Shown here: piece by piece, positions 48,954-57,344 of the stretch
How positions within the stretch are numbered: the stretch's first letter is position 1
How the letters are laid out: each line of letters starts with the position of its first letter
Assembly: GCA_016350165.1 (NCBI GenBank)
Contig: CP066225.1
Span: 4,898,001 to 4,962,000 of the forward strand
Direction of reading: 5' to 3'
Origin: Planctomycetota bacterium
Lineage (GTDB): Bacteria; Planctomycetota; Phycisphaerae; Phycisphaerales; Phycisphaeraceae
DNA: 64,000 bases
The notes under the pieces: generated by a model
Told to the model about the DNA's origin: nothing
The model's database searches: none
What the model saw: the letters and a program-made list of their open reading frames with translations, nothing else
Program-made: the position numbers and the translations under genes

Positions 48954-50195
48954 GTGAGCAAGCTGATTCTCATCGTAGAAGATCAATCACTTCAGCAAAT
49001 AGTAGAGAAACAGGTCCAGAACCTGCTCGAACATTGGGGCGGCTCAGACAAGCCGCAATCCCAAATCATTTTTGCATCCGATCTTCACTCACACACACAA
49101 GCCCTCACCACCGGCGTCGCTTGGATCTGGTACAACAACTCATCATCCTCATCACTCTACGAAACACTTGGCATCGTCCAGGATTCGCACATCCCCTCCA
49201 TGATCACCTTCACCTCAGAACTCGACCCACACGGCTCCACCTTCGACGACGGCATCGTCTTCTGTCATCCCGACGCAACACCCGATCAAACCGCCGTCAT
49301 GATCCGCACGCTTTTCTGTCAGTACCACATGATCGATGGCATGCGTCAAGAAATGCGCGTCCTCAAAGCCCATCAAGGCGGCCTCGCCGACCAAATCGGC
49401 AAGATGGACGAAGAACTCCGCCTCGCTGCCCAACTACAAAAAGAATTCCTCCCACGTGAGCTTCCAACCCTCCACGATGTCTCATTCCAAGTCCTTTGGC
49501 GACCAGCAGGCTACGTCTCAGGCGACATCTACGACGTACAACGTCTCGACGAAAACCACATCGGCTTCTTCGTCGCCGACGCTGTCGGTCACGGCGTCCC
49601 CGCCGCCCTCATGACCATGTACATCAAACGCTCACTCCAAACCAAAGTCATCGACCCCGACTCACCGCGTGGCTACCGCATCCTCACTCCATCCGAAACC
49701 CTCGCAAAACTAAACCACGACATGATCGAGCGTCAAGCTGGCAAAGTTCGCTTCGCCACTGCTTGTTGTGGCCTCATCAACTGCAAAACCAACACACTCC
49801 AAATCGCCCGCGCTGGTCACCCCTTCCCCATGGTTCTCCGAGCCGACGGCTCTAACTCCATGATCGAACCCGAAGGCGGCCTCCTCGGCGTCTTCCCCGA
49901 CGAAGATTTCGAACAAGCAGAAGTCATCCTCAACCCAAACGATCGTCTACTCCTCTACTCCGACGGCTTCGAAGTCGCATTCCCACAAATCGGCACAAAA
50001 ACCTCAGAAGGCCGCATCGCCAACGAGCAATACCTCGAAGAATTCAATATGCTTCGTGAAGGCCATCTCGAAGAAGTCTTCGACCGCTTCTGTTCACGCC
50101 TCGACGAGCAAGCCGGCTCACTCAACCAACGCGATGACCTCACCGTCATCTGTCTCGCCGTCAACGAAGCCCAAGCCCAACAAAATGCCGCCTAA
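48954..50195 (+). CDS. SpoIIE/RsbU-type PP2C phosphatase with receiver-like N-terminus
   Basis: Starts at GTG (48954). Residues ~1-125 resemble a degenerate receiver domain (LILIVEDQSLQQIVEKQ), followed by a coiled helix (MDEELRLAAQLQKEFLP) and a PPM/SpoIIE phosphatase domain with GDIYDVQRLDEN, VADAVGHGVPAALM, RAGHPFPM, YSDGFEVA and DDLTVICL, carrying the metal-binding aspartates. RsbU-like enzymes dephosphorylate anti-anti-sigma factors in partner-switching stress or biofilm control. No STAS or HATPase partner lies adjacent. Its expected role is a signalling output; the input is unclear. Confidence 0.9.
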   Translation: MSKLILIVEDQSLQQIVEKQVQNLLEHWGGSDKPQSQIIFASDLHSHTQALTTGVAWIWYNNSSSSSLYETLGIVQDSHIPSMITFTSELDPHGSTFDDGIVFCHPDATPDQTAVMIRTLFCQYHMIDGMRQEMRVLKAHQGGLADQIGKMDEELRLAAQLQKEFLPRELPTLHDVSFQVLWRPAGYVSGDIYDVQRLDENHIGFFVADAVGHGVPAALMTMYIKRSLQTKVIDPDSPRGYRILTPSETLAKLNHDMIERQAGKVRFATACCGLINCKTNTLQIARAGHPFPMVLRADGSNSMIEPEGGLLGVFPDEDFEQAEVILNPNDRLLLYSDGFEVAFPQIGTKTSEGRIANEQYLEEFNMLREGHLEEVFDRFCSRLDEQAGSLNQRDDLTVICLAVNEAQAQQNAA

Positions 50196-50228
50196 TCACC
50201 AGATAGACATGCGAATAACCCTATAAAA

Positions 50229-50252
50229 AACGCCGCGAAGATTTGCGGCGAG
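50229..50252 (-). terminator. Terminator downstream of GIY-YIG-like gene
   Basis: CGCCGC and GCGGCG flank an 8-nt loop. On the - strand the stem is followed by TTTTTTATAG. It lies ~95 bp beyond the leftward gene's stop. Confidence 0.75.
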
Positions 50253-50343
50253 TCAATAAACGATTGTTCAAAATAAAAAGCATCAATTACCTGCAAGCAC
50301 GTTCATGTCTCGCTTGCGTCTTTCCTAGCACTAGCACTTCCAC

Positions 50344-50676
50344 CTAATTACAAGGCGGCTCATAAGCAGCAATCAAATCCTCAGCAATCTTCTTCCTCTG
50401 CTCAGGACTATTCTTTCTGCAAACACAAATCATATTCGCCTTCAGCTTCGTCAACTCACCCGACTTCGGATGCTCACGAAATTCACGCTGCATATCACCC
50501 GTCTCACCAATCAACAAACTCTGATGCGTAAACTTCTTCGTCTTCGCCTTATGCCGATTACTCACAAAATAAACCCCAGCCATCCCTTCATCCCAAAACA
50601 TGTCATACGGATAAACATCAAACGGATAAGCCACCCCTGACTTCCCAGTAAATTTAACGGTTGAAATACGCGACAT
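50344..50676 (-). CDS. Small GIY-YIG-nuclease-like protein
   Basis: This 110-residue protein has AGVYFVSN, then HQSLLIGETGDMQREF after a spacer, matching the GIY...YIG hairpin with substitutions (GVY and LIG). The C-terminal IAEDLIAAYEPPCN resembles the E...L...(K/P)PP.N ending of GIY-YIG domains. The full catalytic set (Arg on the first helix, Glu near the end) may be present but altered, so nuclease activity is uncertain. It is monocistronic with a terminator. It could instead be an uncharacterised small cytosolic protein. Confidence 0.7.
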   Translation of the reverse strand: MSRISTVKFTGKSGVAYPFDVYPYDMFWDEGMAGVYFVSNRHKAKTKKFTHQSLLIGETGDMQREFREHPKSGELTKLKANMICVCRKNSPEQRKKIAEDLIAAYEPPCN

Positions 50677-50790
50677 ATCAAATCCCTCTTTAAGTACTGG
50701 ATAAAACGCAATAGGTACACATCAATAAAACCAATCACCACCCCAATATTCTCATCGCACCCCACCCATTCTGCAAGGATTTTTTACGTA

Positions 50791-51207
50791 TCACACCTGT
50801 CGCTCTTTAAACACAATCACATACCCGCACTCAGGGCAACTTTCTTGCTCTTCATCCAACCCCTTCGTCATATACCCACACGCCACGCACCGTTTCACAC
50901 GAATCAAACCATCCGCATCCATCTCATCCACATAACTTTTCATCACCCGCATAAACACTCGCATGATCACAAAAGCGCTCGCCCCAACGATACCCATCCC
51001 AATCATCCAAACCCAACCTTTGCCCAGCAACGCAATCACACCCGCAATCACTAGAAAATTCAGCACAAACAAACCTCTGACCAACCGCATCTTTAGCATC
51101 TCTTCACGCCACACCAACCGCAGCAACTTCTTCCGCGCATCCTTAGGTAACCTCCCCGCAATCGGACAAATCGCCCACACATACGGTATTTCACTGTAAT
51201 TCGCCAT
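50791..51207 (-). CDS. Small membrane protein with C-terminal zinc ribbon
   Basis: This 138-residue protein has two hydrophobic helices (about residues 44-85: LFVLNFLVIAGVIALL, WMIGMGIVGASAFVI) and a C-terminal four-Cys ribbon (CVACGYMTKG ... CPECGYVIVF). Similar small planctomycete membrane/ribbon proteins have no known role. The start ATG has no strong ribosome site. It follows the NTF2-like gene by about 20 bp on the same strand, so the two may be co-transcribed. Confidence 0.65.
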   Translation of the reverse strand: MANYSEIPYVWAICPIAGRLPKDARKKLLRLVWREEMLKMRLVRGLFVLNFLVIAGVIALLGKGWVWMIGMGIVGASAFVIMRVFMRVMKSYVDEMDADGLIRVKRCVACGYMTKGLDEEQESCPECGYVIVFKERQV

Positions 51208-51228
51208 GCATCAAGCCCCAGCTGTCGT

Positions 51229-51612
51229 TTAGCTTATATCAGTCAAACGCACAATTTTTCCATCCGCAAACTCAAACTCAGATGTCCCGCGCAAGCTTAG
51301 CTCCTGACCTGCCTTCAATCCGTTTGGCAAATCAATCGCCAACCTGCCCGTATAAAAAATCTTCACAACCATTTTCTCACCCATCGTGACCATCTCATCA
51401 ATCACCTGTTCCCGCTCTGAAAACAATACCCGTCCTTGCTCCGCCATCGAACGGAATTCATCAATCCCATTCGCATTTGCCGTCACCTTGCCATCCGACA
51501 CATTCTCAAAAACAATCCCCTCATTCAAAAGCTCTAGCATCCCCTCAACATCAAACGCGTTATAGCATTCAATATAAGTCCGAATCACTTCAACCTTCTG
51601 CTCATCAGTCAT
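51229..51612 (-). CDS. SnoaL/NTF2-like protein
   Basis: About 127 residues of cone-shaped alpha+beta barrel type: VEVIRTYIECYNAFDVEGMLELLNEGIVF, then FRSMAEQGRVLF, VTMGEKMVVKIFYTGRL and LRGTSEFEFADGKI in pieces. NTF2-like proteins include isomerases, lyases and pure binding domains; no catalytic signature is clear here. The ATG at 51612 is preferred because a terminator hairpin of the upstream ribE transcript covers 51657-51686. Probably forms a unit with the ribbon membrane protein downstream. Confidence 0.75.
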   Translation of the reverse strand: MTDEQKVEVIRTYIECYNAFDVEGMLELLNEGIVFENVSDGKVTANANGIDEFRSMAEQGRVLFSEREQVIDEMVTMGEKMVVKIFYTGRLAIDLPNGLKAGQELSLRGTSEFEFADGKIVRLTDIS

Positions 51613-51651
51613 AAATACATATCTCCAAAAACCATCATCAAACAACCTAAA

Positions 51652-51686
51652 TAAAACACGCCCATTCTCTTCCAAGAACGGGCGTG
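51652..51686 (-). terminator. Terminator after ribE
   Basis: CACGCCCATTCT and AGAACGGGCGTG form a long stem with one mismatch. On the - strand it is followed by TTTTATTT. It ends the ribE transcript. Confidence 0.8.
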
Positions 51687-51727
51687 CATCAATCTTTTAT
51701 TTTTAGTATGAGTTCTGCTGCTCAATA

Positions 51728-51754
51728 TTAGCCGGCGAGCCACGCTCGCCGTGC
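51728..51754 (+). repeat. REP-like palindrome, copy 1
   Basis: TTAGCCGGCGAGCCACGCTC, then GCCGTGC; GGCGAG pairs with CTCGCC. It shares the pattern TAGCC-stem-loop-stem and the trailing CACCCCTCA with three copies upstream of ribE. Confidence 0.6.
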
Positions 51755-51784
51755 ACACCCCTCACTTACTCCACTTCTCAAAAT

Positions 51785-52507
51785 TTACTCACTTCCGGGG
51801 GCAACAAATCCGCCCGCATTTTTAAGCATTTCGATCGTCACCTTGCTCTGCTTCTTCGCCTTTTCGTCCTCATCTTTACCGAGAACCAATTTACCCAAAG
51901 CAGCAAGATTCAGATTATGCACCACCGTCTTGCTGATGATGTCAGCCTCAAGATTCAAACGATCACCAACCTTCGCCGTGCCAAGCGTCGTCACCGTCAA
52001 CGTCTCAGGAATCAACGCAACCTCAAACGTCATCGAATCAACATCAACTGTTGCAATCGTCAAGCTAATACCGTCCAAAGCAATCGATCCCTTATAAACA
52101 ACATAAGGCATCAACTCCGCCGGCGGCTTAACTCGCACCCTCACCTCATCATCACTCTTCTGAATCTCAACGATCTCACCCACCGCATCAACATGACCCT
52201 GCATGAAGTGTCCGCCTAATGGTTGATTAGGGAACACCGCTGGCTCCATATTGATCTCATCGCCAACATTCAAATCGCCAAGCTTCGTAACTGCCAATGT
52301 CTCAGCAATCACATCAAAGCTCAGCGTCGTGTCCGTCCAATCAATCACTGTCAGACAAACACCACTACAGCAGATCGACTCCCCCTGTCCCGGCACATAA
52401 TCATTCGCCGGTTTCCATGCACTACGATCCACGACCAATCGCTTACCCATTGCAATATCTTGCATCTCAGCGATACGACCCTTAGCTTGTACAATTCCTG
52501 TAAACAT
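51785..52507 (-). CDS. ribE: Riboflavin synthase alpha chain
   Basis: Converts two 6,7-dimethyl-8-ribityllumazines to riboflavin. It starts MFTGIVQAKGRI and holds two lumazine-binding beta-barrel repeats (about 1-97 and 98-200), with the paired catalytic-region segments SICCSGVCLTV and SIALDGISLTI, and GGHFMQGHVDAVG between. About 30 extra Lys/Glu/Asp-rich residues extend the C-terminus beyond the usual ~200-215. No other rib gene is nearby and no FMN riboswitch pattern is seen upstream. It ends at a terminator. Confidence 0.95.
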   Translation of the reverse strand: MFTGIVQAKGRIAEMQDIAMGKRLVVDRSAWKPANDYVPGQGESICCSGVCLTVIDWTDTTLSFDVIAETLAVTKLGDLNVGDEINMEPAVFPNQPLGGHFMQGHVDAVGEIVEIQKSDDEVRVRVKPPAELMPYVVYKGSIALDGISLTIATVDVDSMTFEVALIPETLTVTTLGTAKVGDRLNLEADIISKTVVHNLNLAALGKLVLGKDEDEKAKKQSKVTIEMLKNAGGFVAPGSE

Positions 52508-52587
52508 AACCCCATTCTAGCCCCCTACCCCAACCATGACAAAAATACGAATCACCTAATCATGAGTTAGAGCAAGCCTGCAGCGCC

Positions 52588-52613
52588 AATAGCCAGCGAT
52601 CCAAGATCGCCGG
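52588..52613 (+). repeat. REP-like palindrome, copy 2
   Basis: AATAGCCAGCGATCCAAGAT, then CGCCGG; the stem CAGCGAT/ATCGCCG has one mismatch. It is followed by a CATCCCTCACTCCTCC tail like that of the other copies. Confidence 0.6.
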
Positions 52614-52667
52614 AAACTCTCATCCCTCACTCCTCCATAAGCCAATTCCAAAATATCCTGCAACTCA

Positions 52668-52694
52668 ACTAGCCGCCGATGCACGATCGGCGTG
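52668..52694 (+). repeat. REP-like palindrome, copy 3
   Basis: ACTAGCCGCCGATGCACGAT, then CGGCGTG; GCCGAT pairs with ATCGGC. The tail CCCACTCCTCAATCC matches the other copies. Confidence 0.6.
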
Positions 52695-52800
52695 CCCACT
52701 CCTCAATCCTCTCCGTCTCAACATTTATGTTGATTAAGAACCATCAATAACGAAATAACACCATCCCATTATTTTTGTCTTCTCGAATTTCAAATTCTCC

Positions 52801-52828
52801 ATTAGCCGCTGACCTACGAGCAGCGGAA
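52801..52828 (+). repeat. REP-like palindrome, copy 4
   Basis: ATTAGCCGCTGACCTACGAG, then CAGCGGAA; CCGCTG pairs with CAGCGG. The stem bases differ from the other copies on both sides together, so pairing is kept. Confidence 0.55.
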
Positions 52829-52950
52829 GCCTCAAACCTTCACCCGATCTCTCCAAGTCCCAACCTACAGCCCACGCAGTAGCTCTAATCTAATACCACT
52901 TAAGCCGCCCTCATTTTCAGCCCAATATCCAAAATCAAAATCTCGAGGCC

Positions 52951-52962
52951 GCGCGCACGAAA
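52951..52962 (+). repeat. 12-bp intergenic word GCGCGCACGAAA, copy 2
   Basis: Exact match to 53107-53118 and to the reverse strand at 15129-15140. It begins a C-rich stretch ending near 53.17 kb. Confidence 0.5.
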
Positions 52963-53058
52963 ATTTAAAAACTCCGTTTTCTGTCCATTTCTTGCCCATT
53001 TCTCATCATTCTTGGCCTGTTTTTGCATATTTCTGTCGATTTCAGGCCGTTTTCAAAC

Positions 53059-53102
53059 CCTGATTTCGCCAAATCAGGCCCAATCTGCACGAAATCAGTG
53101 CA
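53059..53102 (+). other. Two adjacent hairpins upstream of aspS
   Basis: CCTGATTT-CGCC-AAATCAGG (53059-53078) is a perfect 8-bp stem with a 4-nt loop. It is followed at once by TGCAC...GTGCA (53086-53102). Together with the flanking 12-mers they may form a structured RNA or DNA element. Confidence 0.45.
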
Positions 53103-53106
53103 AAAC

Positions 53107-53118
53107 GCGCGCACGAAA
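53107..53118 (+). repeat. 12-bp intergenic word GCGCGCACGAAA, copy 3
   Basis: Lies just after the hairpin pair and is identical to the copy at 52951. Confidence 0.5.
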
Positions 53119-53326
53119 CCGACGCGAAATCTCAAATCTCTGCCTAATCCTTAAGCAAAAATAAGGCTTTTCTCATGCACATTTCCCGCAAGAAAAAGCT
53201 GCCAAATGGAGCAATAATCCACTTCGTGGTATCATTCCCATCCTGAATCATTCGCGACGACAACGGATTTAATCGTGAATGACCAAACGGTATTTATTAA
53301 CCCCACAGACAGTGATCGAAATCATC

Positions 53327-55120
53327 ATGAAAAAGAGAACTCACAGTTGCGGCGCTTTACGCAAAGACCATGCAGGACAAACAGTTACGCTCGCAGGTTG
53401 GGTTAATAATTACCGCGACCACGGCGGCGTCATCTTCATCGACCTCCGTGACCGTGATGGCATCACACAGTTCGTCTTCAACCCAGAAGAAAAAGAAGCC
53501 CACGAACTCGCTTCCAAGCTCCGTCTCGAAGACGTCGCACAAATCACCGGCAATGTCATCGAACGTGGTGTCGATGACAAAGGCAAGTCATTAGTAAACA
53601 AGAAGTTAGCCACAGGTGAAGTCGAAGTCGTCGCCACAGGCCTCGAAATCCTCAACAAAGCTGAAACACCGCCATTCGTTCCGAATGACGCTCATAAAGT
53701 CAGTGAAGAAAAGCGTTTACAGTACCGCTTCATCGACCTGCGTCAGCCACGCATGCAGGAAATCCTCAAGACCCGTCACCGCGTCACCAAGATCATGCGT
53801 GACCACTACGACAGCGAAGGTTTCTACGAAATCGAAACCCCATTCCTTTGTAAATCCACACCTGAAGGCGCACGTGACTTCCTCGTTCCATCACGCCTGC
53901 AGCCAGGTTCTTTCTACGCATTACCTCAGTCCCCACAGCTATTTAAGCAAATCCTCATGGTCTCGGGCATGGAAAAATATTTCCAGATCGTCCGCTGTTT
54001 CCGTGATGAAGACCCACGTGCTGACCGCCAAGCTGAATTCACTCAGCTCGACGTCGAAATGTCATTCGTCGAAGTCGAAGACATCATCACCACCCACGAA
54101 TCACTCATGCGAAAAATCTGGAAGACCGTTCTTGATGTAGACGTTCCAGAAATTCCACGCATGGCCTATGACGACGCGATCAACAACTACGGCTCAGACC
54201 GCCCTGACCTGCGTTTTGATATGCAACTCGTTGATGTAACAGAACTTGCATCGAAGACAGATTTTAAAGTCTTCACTGGTGCCATCGAAAAAGGCGGCAT
54301 CGTCAAGGCGATCCGCGTCCCAGGCGGTGCGAAACTTACCCGTAAACAAACCGATGCACTCGCAGTCTGGGTTAAAGACTTCGGTGCAGGCGGCCTGCCC
54401 ATCACCAAAGTCGTCGATGGCAACGTCTCAACCGGTATCGCGAAATTCATTGAACCTATTGGTAATAAACTAGTTACGCTCATGGGCGCAGAAGACGGCG
54501 ACCTGATCTGCTTCGGCGTCGACGCCAAGCCAGCAACAGTTCATCGTGTCCTCGGCGAACTCCGCGTGAAACTCGCCCACGACCTCGAACTCATCAAAGA
54601 GGGCGATTGGAAATGGGTCTGGATCGTCGATTTCCCACTCGTCGAATACCGTGAAGAAGAAGGTCGTTTCTTCAGCACGCACCACCCATTCACCGCTCCA
54701 AACGATGAAGATATCGATAAACTCGAAACAGATCCGGGTGCGATTAAGAGTAAGGCTTATGACCTTGTGCTTAACGGTTCGGAACTTGGCGGCGGTTCGA
54801 TTCGTGTGCATGACATGAATATGCAGAAACGTGTGTTCAAGATGCTGGGTATCGATGAAGAAGAAGCGGTCGAGAAGTTTGGCTTCTTGCTGAATGCACT
54901 TAAGTTTGGTGCACCGCCACATGGTGGTATCGCGTTTGGTTTAGACCGAATTGTGATGCACTTGTGCAACACAACGAATATTCGTGACGTGATTGCGTTC
55001 CCGAAAACGCAGACTGGTGCGGATTTGATGCTGGATGCACCATCGCCTGTTGAAGATGCACAGCTGAAGGAACTTTCGATCCGTAAAAATCTTACAACTG
55101 AAAAAATCATCAAAGAGTAG
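53327..55120 (+). CDS. aspS: Aspartyl-tRNA synthetase
   Basis: This ~597-residue class II enzyme has an OB-fold anticodon-binding domain (AGWVNNYRDHGGVIFIDLRDRDG in parts), motif 2 with FRDEDPRADRQAEFTQLD, a GAD insertion domain and motif 3 GIAFGLDRIVMHL. A bacterial-type insert is present, so it may also charge tRNA-Asn if no AsnRS exists. The ATG at 53327 starts the family homology (MKKRTHSCGALR); an upstream in-frame ATG at 53279 adds 16 residues. Codon bias and strand composition change sharply inside the gene near 54.74 kb. Confidence 0.95.
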   Translation: MKKRTHSCGALRKDHAGQTVTLAGWVNNYRDHGGVIFIDLRDRDGITQFVFNPEEKEAHELASKLRLEDVAQITGNVIERGVDDKGKSLVNKKLATGEVEVVATGLEILNKAETPPFVPNDAHKVSEEKRLQYRFIDLRQPRMQEILKTRHRVTKIMRDHYDSEGFYEIETPFLCKSTPEGARDFLVPSRLQPGSFYALPQSPQLFKQILMVSGMEKYFQIVRCFRDEDPRADRQAEFTQLDVEMSFVEVEDIITTHESLMRKIWKTVLDVDVPEIPRMAYDDAINNYGSDRPDLRFDMQLVDVTELASKTDFKVFTGAIEKGGIVKAIRVPGGAKLTRKQTDALAVWVKDFGAGGLPITKVVDGNVSTGIAKFIEPIGNKLVTLMGAEDGDLICFGVDAKPATVHRVLGELRVKLAHDLELIKEGDWKWVWIVDFPLVEYREEEGRFFSTHHPFTAPNDEDIDKLETDPGAIKSKAYDLVLNGSELGGGSIRVHDMNMQKRVFKMLGIDEEEAVEKFGFLLNALKFGAPPHGGIAFGLDRIVMHLCNTTNIRDVIAFPKTQTGADLMLDAPSPVEDAQLKELSIRKNLTTEKIIKE

Positions 55121-55212
55121 CTGGGAAGGTCTATATTTATAGGCTGAAACGTATACTTGATGATGGTTTATCAACTCGAACTTATAGAGAGTTGTGAGGG
55201 TAGAAAAGCAAT

Positions 55213-55242
55213 AGCACCCGGCTGAGAAGCTGGGTGCTTTTT
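55213..55242 (+). terminator. Rho-independent terminator after aspS
   Basis: AGCACCCGGCT and AGCTGGGTGCT form a long stem with a 4-nt loop, followed by a run of eight or more T. Confidence 0.9.
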
Positions 55243-55406
55243 TTTGTGTTGATGCGGGTTGGTTGTGATTGTGGTTTAGAAAAAGATGCGTGATGAAATT
55301 GGGTGGCTGGGGTATGATATTGGTCAGAATATTGGTGGCGTGTGCGGTCTTCAATGTTATGAAGATAATATAAGCGCTGATTAGATAGATTCGGGAGCGT
55401 GAGTTT

Positions 55407-57344
55407 ATGTGCGGCATAGCAGGTATGGTGAGGTTCGATCGTAAGTCGGTTGGACGCGAGGTATTGGAGGTGTTACTGTCGAAGATTTCTATGCGCGGTC
55501 GCGATGGTGCGGCGGCGTGGATGAATTCTGATCAGATGGTGGGGTTGGTACATTCACGTCATAGTGTGATTGACTTGCCGGGCGGCGGGCAGCCTATGGT
55601 TGCAGAGATGGATGCGAAGTTTGGGCAGTTGGCGGTTGTGTTTAATGGTGAGATTTATAATCACCGCGCGATACGTAAAGAGCTTGAAGAGAAGGGTCAC
55701 AAGTTCCAATCAAATCACAGTGATACAGAAGTGTTTCTGCATGGGTATCGCGAGTGGGGCGCGAAGGTATTGGATCGTTTGGAGGGGATGTTTGCGGTTG
55801 CGATTTGGGATCAGACGAATCGTTCATTGTTCTTAGCGCGAGATAGAGCGGGGAAGAAGCCGTTGTATGTTTGTAAGAAGAATGATGTACTTTTCTTTGG
55901 TAGTACAGCTGCGGCGGTGAGTCTTGGGGTGCAGAAATTTACACGTCAAGATGTTGAGATTGATTACGAAGCGATGCTGAACTATCTGCGGTTTGGTTAT
56001 ACGGGGCGGAAGAGTCTTGTAAAGGGCGTGCAGGAGTTGGAGCCCGGTTGCTGGACGCTTGTGGGCAGTGACGGGATGATGTGGTCAGAGCGGTATTGGG
56101 AGTGGCCTGCGGTGACGGGGATATCGCGGGTGGAAGATAAGTACGATGATAATATTGCGGAACTGATTGCACGTGCGCATATGACGCTGAAAGATGCGGT
56201 TGCGAAAAGGCTTGAGGCGGATGTGCCTTTGGGCTGTTTTTTAAGTAGTGGGATTGATTCGTCGGTGATAGCGGCGCTTGCTCAGGAGGCAATGAATGAA
56301 GCTGGGGCTGGGAAACTAAAGACTTTCTGCGTGCAGATGCCTGAAGCGACTTATGATGAATCAAATGTTGCGAAGGCGATAGCAAATCAGTTGGGGACAG
56401 AGCATGTGACGCTGAAGACGCAGGTGGGGGATGCGTTTAGTGATTTGGAATTTTTGATGAATGGCTATGGGGAGCCAACGGCGGACAGTTCGGTTTTGCC
56501 GACGTATTGGCTTTGTAAGGCGGCGCGTGAGCATGTGAAGGTTGCGCTGTCAGGCGATGGTGGTGACGAATTGTTTGCTGGTTATGATCGCTATCGCGCG
56601 CTTAGTCTGATGTCGAAACATGGTTGGTGGTTAAGCGCGATGCCTGGCGCTGCGTTTGGTGGAACTGATGAAAAATCAAAACGTGTGCGCATGGGAAGGT
56701 TGGTGAAAGCAGCGAAAACAAAAGGCGGTACAGCGATGAAGTATCGGAATATCGTGGAGATATTCAGTGATGACATGATTGGTGAGATTGGTGGGGAAGT
56801 AATGCAGAAACAGCTTGCGGAGGAAGGTAAGTTTGAGATGGATGGTTGGGCGGATATTGAAATGGGGATGGGTAAGCATGGTGACATGATTAATGCTGCG
56901 ATGCGATGGGATTTCTCGCATTATCTTGTTGATGATATTTTGCGTAAGGTTGATCGCGCGAGCATGAGCGTGCCTTTGGAGGTTAGGTGCCCGATTTTGG
57001 ATCATGAGGTGTGCGAGTTGTCGATGCGGTTGCGTGGTAAGAGCTTATTGGTGGACAAGATGCAAAAGGGGATATTGAGAAGGATTGCTGGTCGGTACTT
57101 GCCAGAGAGTGTGACGAAGCGTGGGAAGATGGGGTTCGCGCTGCCGATTGGGAGATGGTTTCAGTGGGAGTTGCGTGATGAATTGAAGGAACGGCTGCTG
57201 GATGGGAGTCTGGAGTCGATGGGGTTTGAGATGGAGGCTGTGAAGGGGATGCTGAACGCTCACCAAGTGGGTGATGTGGATCATGCTCACCGGCTATTTG
57301 CGCTAGCGCAGCTGACGATCTGGTGGAAGTCACTGAAATCGTGA
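55407..57344 (+). CDS. asnB: Asparagine synthetase (glutamine-hydrolysing)
   Basis: This 645-residue protein starts MCGIAG, with Cys2 as the glutaminase nucleophile, and holds the Ntn fold (VHSRHSVIDLPGGGQPM, VFNGEIYNHRAIR) and an ATP-pyrophosphatase domain with LSSGIDSSVIAAL. The synthetase region continues through LSGDGGDELFAGYDRY and the C-terminal KMGFALPIGRWF. It makes asparagine, or, as in many related paralogues, amidates a secondary metabolite or surface sugar. It is monocistronic. + strand composition here is strongly G-rich. Confidence 0.9.
   Translation: MCGIAGMVRFDRKSVGREVLEVLLSKISMRGRDGAAAWMNSDQMVGLVHSRHSVIDLPGGGQPMVAEMDAKFGQLAVVFNGEIYNHRAIRKELEEKGHKFQSNHSDTEVFLHGYREWGAKVLDRLEGMFAVAIWDQTNRSLFLARDRAGKKPLYVCKKNDVLFFGSTAAAVSLGVQKFTRQDVEIDYEAMLNYLRFGYTGRKSLVKGVQELEPGCWTLVGSDGMMWSERYWEWPAVTGISRVEDKYDDNIAELIARAHMTLKDAVAKRLEADVPLGCFLSSGIDSSVIAALAQEAMNEAGAGKLKTFCVQMPEATYDESNVAKAIANQLGTEHVTLKTQVGDAFSDLEFLMNGYGEPTADSSVLPTYWLCKAAREHVKVALSGDGGDELFAGYDRYRALSLMSKHGWWLSAMPGAAFGGTDEKSKRVRMGRLVKAAKTKGGTAMKYRNIVEIFSDDMIGEIGGEVMQKQLAEEGKFEMDGWADIEMGMGKHGDMINAAMRWDFSHYLVDDILRKVDRASMSVPLEVRCPILDHEVCELSMRLRGKSLLVDKMQKGILRRIAGRYLPESVTKRGKMGFALPIGRWFQWELRDELKERLLDGSLESMGFEMEAVKGMLNAHQVGDVDHAHRLFALAQLTIWWKSLKS

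Follow-up and report, generated by a model that had tools for sequence, protein, structure and literature searches.

Small hairpins beside ribE belong to a family of about 130 intergenic copies in a marine planctomycete

Could the small hairpins on both sides of a presumed riboflavin synthase gene be members of a repeat family, and if so, of what kind? The question arises from a window of 64,000 nt (the whole stretch of DNA analysed, positions 4,898,001 to 4,962,000 of contig CP066225.1), where the initial annotation placed four TAGCC hairpins at 51728, 52588, 52668 and 52801. All four are present, and these starts are right within 1-2 bases: TAGCC begins at 51729, 52590, 52670 and 52803 in copies 1 to 4, respectively, always on the plus strand.

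Copy 1 (51728..51772, plus strand; G000:C1:4949728 in the genome) consists of the foot TTAGC, the stem CGGCGAGC/GCTCGCCG, the loop CAC and the tail TGCACACCCCTCA (class D), and copy 2 (52589..52633, plus strand) of ATAGC, CAGCGATC/GATCGCCG with one mismatch, CAA and GAAACTCTCATCCCTCA (class B). Copy 3 (52669..52713, plus strand) has the foot CTAGC, the stem CGCCGAT/ATCGGCG, a 5-nt loop and the tail TGCCCACTCCTCA (class A), with the leader CTGCAACTCAA on its 5' side at 52658, while copy 4 (52802..52846, plus strand) has the foot TTAGC, the outer stem CGCTG/CAGCG, a mismatched upper stem and the tail GAAGCCTCAAACC (class F). The tail motifs are CACCCCTCA, CTCTCATCCCTCA, CCCACTCCTCA and again GAAGCCTCAAACC, respectively. 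A contiguous-stem scan gave 8 pairs and a 3-nt loop for copy 1, 6 pairs and 3 nt for copy 2, and 7 pairs and 5 nt for copy 3; it missed copy 4, whose imperfect stem has the outer CCGCTG/CAGCGG pairing only, enclosing a longer loop. The covariance model described below (R1) scores copies 1 to 3 at 52.7, 45.8 and 51.1 bits, and copy 4, which belongs to the training set, at 32.0 bits.

The gene between copy 1 and copies 2-4 (51785..52507, minus strand), which we take to be ribE, has a counterpart with 85% identity in a genus-mate (G001). Copy 1 lies between ribE and, on the opposite side, another minus-strand ORF (51229..51675), and is antisense to both. Copies 2-4 lie within the 771-nt gap between ribE and the divergent plus-strand ORF at 53279..55120, presumably an aspartyl-tRNA synthetase-like gene. 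Copy 4 is just 5' of two CGCGCGCACGAAA motifs (52950-52962 and 53106-53118, plus strand), which resemble those recurring in long non-coding repeats elsewhere in the genome; nhmmer gave no long-repeat match in 52950..53118, so the membership of this stretch in the long repeats is weak. A search of 50000-55500 of the window against Rfam returned only a sub-threshold sR5 match, outside the hairpins. At its ribE locus, the genus-mate shows no model match, but the flanking sequence has diverged too far for this to count as an empty site.

Beyond the window, the exact core TAGCCGNNGATNNANGATCGNCG has 22+11 matches, that is 33, in the 5,234,020-bp genome, and the reversed control has none. The R1 model, built from 41 copies with one TAGCC hairpin of another type left out, gives at least 137 matches genome-wide at E<=1; the best 150 of 1685 first-look candidates were scored, so the model counts are lower bounds. 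A family restricted to the window is excluded by these matches, 130 of which (E<=0.03) were taken into the layout analysis. Under identical settings for both genomes, at least 102 matches were found here and at least 10 in the genus-mate. The design is an N-TAGC foot, an 8-bp stem, a 3-nt loop and a C-rich tail. In 464 kb of this genome, TAGCC ranks first of the 1024 pentamers for a hairpin of 6 or more bp next to it: such a hairpin follows TAGCC at 10 of 436 sites (the 10 include one hairpin of another kind), against an all-pentamer mean of 0.35%. At 796093 on the minus strand (L006), a leader and TAGCC run straight into the tail ATGCTCATCCC, which looks like the loss of the palindrome through slippage. 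No published account of these hairpin repeats was found in the literature searched, which mostly excluded subscription journals.

Flank statistics cover 106 of the 130 copies, the others having no retrieved or unmasked flank. The foot is ATAG in 64 of the 106 and exactly GTAG in 15, and any NTAG is present in 94. A CT dinucleotide starts 2 nt after the stem in 41/106 copies and occurs within 12 nt 3' of the stem in 97/106 (null about 60%). On the 5' side, CT within 12 nt is found in 72/106 copies (null 53%), a weak enrichment.

The statement that stem bases vary between copies while pairing is kept was borne out in the 41 aligned copies. Both sides have changed in six of the eight stem pairs, and 97.3% of the stem cells pair against 84.1% after shuffling, a percentage that is partly by construction, since 40 of the 41 copies were preselected for a contiguous stem. 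None of the 500 shuffles, nor any slid control, reaches the covariation score (0.312), although kinship among copies inflates such scores, and for one of five measures, further pair types, the observed value was reached in 35 of the 500 shuffles. These data support the existence of the stem, not its function. Compensatory stems fit structural selection but also subfamilies copied from different masters. In the list of 90 stems, the type CGCCGATC/GATCGGCG pairs with the tail type (C/T)GC(T/C)CACCCCTCA, CGGCGATC/GATCGCCG goes with GAAACTCTCA, and CGGCGAGC/GCTCGCCG with TGCTCACC; rarer stem-tail types are also present. Of the original proposal of a mobile or selected small repeat family, the genome-wide family with stem-preserving variation therefore stands, whereas mobility was not established, no clean pair of filled and empty sites having been found for the TAGCC hairpin (candidate hairpin-less leaders were not clean), and neither was selection.

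The layout of the family is unusual, with close neighbours all head-to-tail on the C-rich strand. Among the 130 copies listed, 35 neighbour pairs are less than 1.5 kb apart, where about 5 are expected at random, and all 35 are on one strand, head-to-tail, with none inverted. Same-strand neighbours make up 44 of 51 pairs below 5 kb and 38 of 78 at 5 kb or more. Therefore, the coupling of orientation is local. As to strand composition, all 60 testable clusters of hairpins (out of 95) occupy whichever strand of the intergenic region is richer in C, with a mean skew of 0.47, and shorter flanks gave 55/55 and 53/53; the number of testable clusters depends on flank length, the rest having no retrieved or unmasked flank. 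ORFs of at least 90 codons, all model copies and the 25-nt repeat described below were masked in this test, whereas the long repeats, which are C-rich on the same strand, were outside the mask and supply part of the skew. Note that unmasked intergenic stretches in larger pieces have a mean absolute skew of 0.28 (n=157), so the intergenic DNA of this genome is skewed in general. Coupling to the replication strand found no support, as the third-position GC skew flips sign many times between samples, with no clear two-arm pattern. Across 20-kb samples (L036, L041, L049 and others) this skew ranges from -0.59 to +0.53 and only partly follows the coding strand; it is -0.46 in the sample at 1100001, where 39% of the coding sequence is on the plus strand.

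Then, could the hairpins simply be elements acting at the RNA level? Such hairpins, transcribed near gene 3' ends, would shield mRNA or help in its trimming, the C-rich tail would load Rho, and the copies would be kept by selection without transposition. The compensatory stems are consistent with this explanation, and so is part of the gene context, which was computed for 90 of the 130 copies. One of the 90 lies inside a called gene according to the first gene caller, and 2 and 13 according to two others. Based on the first caller, convergent gaps are enriched for copies, and of the 58 copies downstream of a gene on their own strand, 16 are no more than 60 nt from the 3' end of that gene, a location also described for known REPs (PMC3733652). 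The first caller further placed 31 copies in sense against 5 in antisense between tandem genes (21:5 clusters, p 0.0025). However, this bias is not robust: one of the two other callers gave 20:11 clusters (p 0.15) and the other 21:11 (p 0.11), and the first caller had overlooked ORFs, for example 51229-51675, so that copy 1 was misplaced. A gene-sense orientation is therefore not claimed. In addition, 12-15 of the 90 copies, copies 2-4 included, lie between divergent genes, several copies come after the T-run hairpin of the upstream gene as judged by eye, and leaders and tails that are common beyond the stem point to copying. We consider RNA-level elements a possible but rather unlikely explanation of the family, although some copies may act as transcribed hairpins.

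A second alternative starts from two other repeats that are common to the C-rich strand of the hairpins. The first is the 25-nt repeat CAACGATACGCTNNAGTGAAACAAC, an imperfect dyad with 123 hits (at least 18 of 23 positions) and none for the reversed control in 684 kb, a set enriched for hairpins in that many stretches were taken from around them. All 123 hits are on the C-richer strand of the unmasked flanks, and all 63 pairs of neighbours 20-300 nt apart are same-strand, 33 of them spaced 45-54 nt. Direct tandems at about 45-54 nt with non-identical spacers are frequent, for example at G000:C1:1979511-1979632 and 4352238-4352284 (L049), while the period is about 106 nt at 2430563-2431221. With one mismatch at most, CGAYACGYTNNAGTGAAACAA has 88+76 matches here (164) and 6 in the genus-mate; six further genomes of the family have none. 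The second is a long non-coding repeat of about 370 nt, or 470 nt with the hairpin module, whose copies (e.g., L016:407-885, L030:64-542, L135:6368-6839 and L109:1948-2411) are roughly 64-88% identical and carry several CG[CT]GCGCACAAA motifs. It was found in two of 37 genomes: this one, with at least 17 long matches (query included), and the genus-mate, with at least 13 that are shorter or weaker; the other 35 have none among the matches listed. A coding role of the long repeat was rejected, as the longest stop-free runs differ by frame and copy and no consistent reading frame exists, and so was a structured RNA, the consensus fold being weak (12 pairs) and Rfam giving no match at gathering score in the six loci searched. 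Four of the 12 aligned copies (L112, L130, L049 and L124) contain a second hairpin, ACCTCAAAGGCC-CATC-CGGCCT..TTGAGG, with slightly differing variants, located after the left module and before the long repeat; its presence or absence among the long copies is an insertion or deletion.

Accordingly, the TAGCC hairpins could be passengers, that is, one module of longer non-coding repeats made of the 25-nt repeat, often spaced 45-54 nt, and the body of roughly 370 nt; these would have spread through recombination or gene conversion, or by means of an unknown element. A TAG hairpin stands at the left of 9 of the 12 aligned long copies (8 of them TAGCC), which mostly come from DNA around hairpins; genome-wide, a model copy stands at the left of 8 of the 17 long matches listed (query included). 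The 25-nt repeat precedes a hairpin in 38 of the 123 cases in the hairpin-enriched 684 kb, and the restriction of both repeats to this genome and the genus-mate, among the genomes searched, also argues for the passenger explanation. However, most matches of the hairpin module end before the long body, and leader, hairpin and body are each found alone. We therefore give the passenger explanation as low a chance as the RNA-level one.

Intrinsic transcription terminators, alike through common function, are suggested by the GC-rich hairpins and their frequent location 3' of genes. Yet TTTT within 15 nt 3' of the stem is present in 0 of 106 copies, by which this candidate was ruled out, and the conserved flanks, the exact core repeats and the copies in divergent gaps agree with its being very improbable.

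Is there, then, an enzyme in this genome that could have moved the hairpins? The linked REP-associated tyrosine transposase (RAYT) that the initial annotation suggested was not found in this genome with NF047646 and two other RAYT-type queries. The NF047646 model gave one sub-threshold match, on a broken IS200 gene, with no further match at E<=0.001; a profile built from three RAYTs reached E 0.1 at best; and the Y1-like gene of the genus-mate, as query, had no match at E<=0.01, in a genome that is 95.22% complete on one contig, where a very diverged RAYT could escape. The sole Y1 gene identified by PF01797 is a remnant at G000:C1:680223-680581 (L011), broken into two frames (680223-680492 and 680483-680581, with a stop inside the second piece), which scores 108.8 bits against the NCBIfam IS200 model and 30.6 bits against the RAYT model (cut-off 80). 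The remaining alternative, that an IS200/IS605 element of this genome produced the hairpins, is suggested by this IS200-type remnant, and is the least probable of all, as the gene is broken, PF01797 gave no other, and the neighbouring palindrome lacks the TAGC-foot design as judged by eye. In the genus-mate, a single Y1/HuH-like gene of about 180 codons was observed at G001:C1:3329508-3330044 (L156), adjoining an ORF that we take to be groEL-like; its closest relatives, in other genomes, are 35-42% identical, and its 3.5-kb locus contains no model hairpin.

The picture is different in other genera of the family. Among 61 genomes, 15, including this genome and the genus-mate, have R1 matches at E<=0.01; NF047646 matches at E<=0.001 occur in 46, and exceed the cut-off in 25 of these. 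From six genomes with model matches, 19 RAYT loci were chosen as a subset. TAG-footed hairpins occur on both sides, within about 350 nt, at 7 of the 19 (L082, L083, L090, L091, L093, L098 and L099), on one side at 2 (L092 and L100) and on neither side at 10. At L090 and L091 the foot is GTAG with other stems. The closest RAYT-flanking hairpins are TTTAGCG-GGCGATC-GAA-GATCGCC in G015 (L082), with relatives in G008 (L099), and another close one is TTAGC-CGCCGCCC in G011 (L083); the R1 E-values are 8e-8 at L082, 2e-7 at L083 and a weak 0.06 at L099. Three RAYTs that were checked score best to the RAYT model (56, 47 and 61 bits, under the cut-off of 80), and they keep an HxH motif and a YVxxNP tyrosine motif, interpreted in line with PMC6006769.

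The exact TAGCG-GATC hairpin TAGCGGSSGATCNNNGATCSSCG is present in 45, 17, 93 and 64 copies in G008, G009, G015 and G035, respectively, which represent three genera, and has no exact match in G000, G001, G011 and G019. These hairpins resemble the family studied here in the TAGC foot and the G[CG][CG]GATC-NNN-GATC core. They differ in the TAGCG foot, usually with GTT before TAG at the RAYT loci, in the presence of a RAYT, flanked by them at least in G015 and G008, and in the occurrence of inverted pairs. Nine of the ten adjacent hairpin pairs less than 150 nt apart at six chosen RAYT loci are inverted. G019 has at least 27 model matches, none of them within 1.2 kb of its RAYT (L087).

Taking the above together, we favour, with a probability of roughly 55%, the reading of the hairpins as a REP lineage at genus level, now orphaned. 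This reading is based on the TAG foot, the 8-bp/3-nt hairpin, the CT beside the stem and the RAYT-flanking cousins, and a REP origin is plausible because elsewhere in the family, in other genera, hairpins of a similar type flank RAYTs. An ancestral RAYT-type single-strand (HuH/Y1) transposase would have recognised the TAG foot and the 8-bp/3-nt hairpin and cut at CT dinucleotides beside it, and the cut hairpin would have been joined behind another CT on the same strand. Since the C-rich tail of the element itself is a source of many CTCA target sites on that strand, new copies may have landed head-to-tail in the same orientation, giving one-way C-rich mosaics between genes. The enzyme would later have been lost, and the present copies are probably inherited remnants. 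However, the foot is TAGCC here and TAGCG at the RAYT loci, and no exact TAGCG copy occurs in this genus; consequently, the two groups may have converged, and a common origin is not proven. The 10 RAYT loci with no such hairpin nearby, the mostly inverted pairs at the relatives' RAYT loci, the distance of the G019 matches from the RAYT, the rarity of exact GTAG and the weak upstream CT enrichment also weigh against the orphaned lineage.

A further step, which we put forward tentatively and hold to be rather doubtful, is that the hairpins form a self-targeting one-way system. A hairpin would insert behind CT or CTCA on one strand, the tail would bring the same sites along, and directional head-to-tail mosaics would grow between genes, giving these regions a strong C strand, on which the 25-nt and the long repeats also lie. 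If true, this would be a REP-like process creating local strand asymmetry.

REPs have usually been described as inverted doublets beside a resident RAYT. About 130 copies whose close neighbours have one orientation, on the C-rich strand, with no detectable RAYT, constitute a contrast case, which bears on what maintains REP populations after enzyme loss and on what sets the orientation of repeats. Both questions can be tested on the genus pair, with its different numbers of matches, and on those genera of the family that have RAYTs.

How do the hairpins compare with the known systems? The term "REP-like" holds in the sense of a resemblance; full membership is not supported. R. baltica is a planctomycete. 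It is listed among the carriers of GTAG-type repeats in PMC3733652, where the GTAG REP superfamily is described as short hairpins with a 6-9 bp stem and a short loop, in high copy number, intergenic and frequent near gene 3' ends, with stem subfamilies that show compensatory changes, all as here. However, the GTAG foot is more than 90% conserved in most families of the superfamily, whereas ATAG prevails here. In a REPtron, the RAYT gene is flanked by the repeat; no such gene was found in the present genome, while a similar repeat does flank RAYTs in the relatives. The group 3 REP of S. maltophilia, a foot with a perfect 8-bp stem and a 3-nt loop that is cut at CT by TnpA-REP, is similar in the foot, the 8-bp/3-nt hairpin and the CT near the stem (PMC8266576). 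It differs in that no TnpA-REP was found here and the first foot base is variable; a CTAG foot is cut less well, and ATAG is not among the variants considered here (PMC8266576).

REPINs are, like the present family, extragenic and of high copy number, but they are inverted doublets, as are 93% of 430 doublets in SBW25 (PMC3116915; PMC8049555). BIMEs are, as here, mosaics of hairpins and other short motifs, with REPs in alternating or inverse orientation (PMC2817692; PMC8266576), in contrast to the single orientation here. Unlike in REPINs and BIMEs, 0/35 close neighbour pairs are inverted here. Orphanhood itself is not new, since RAYT-free E. coli genomes keep REPINs, so that orphan populations are known (PMC8049555), and the loss of REPtrons by deletion is on record (PMC3733652). 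What is unusual is the one-way layout.
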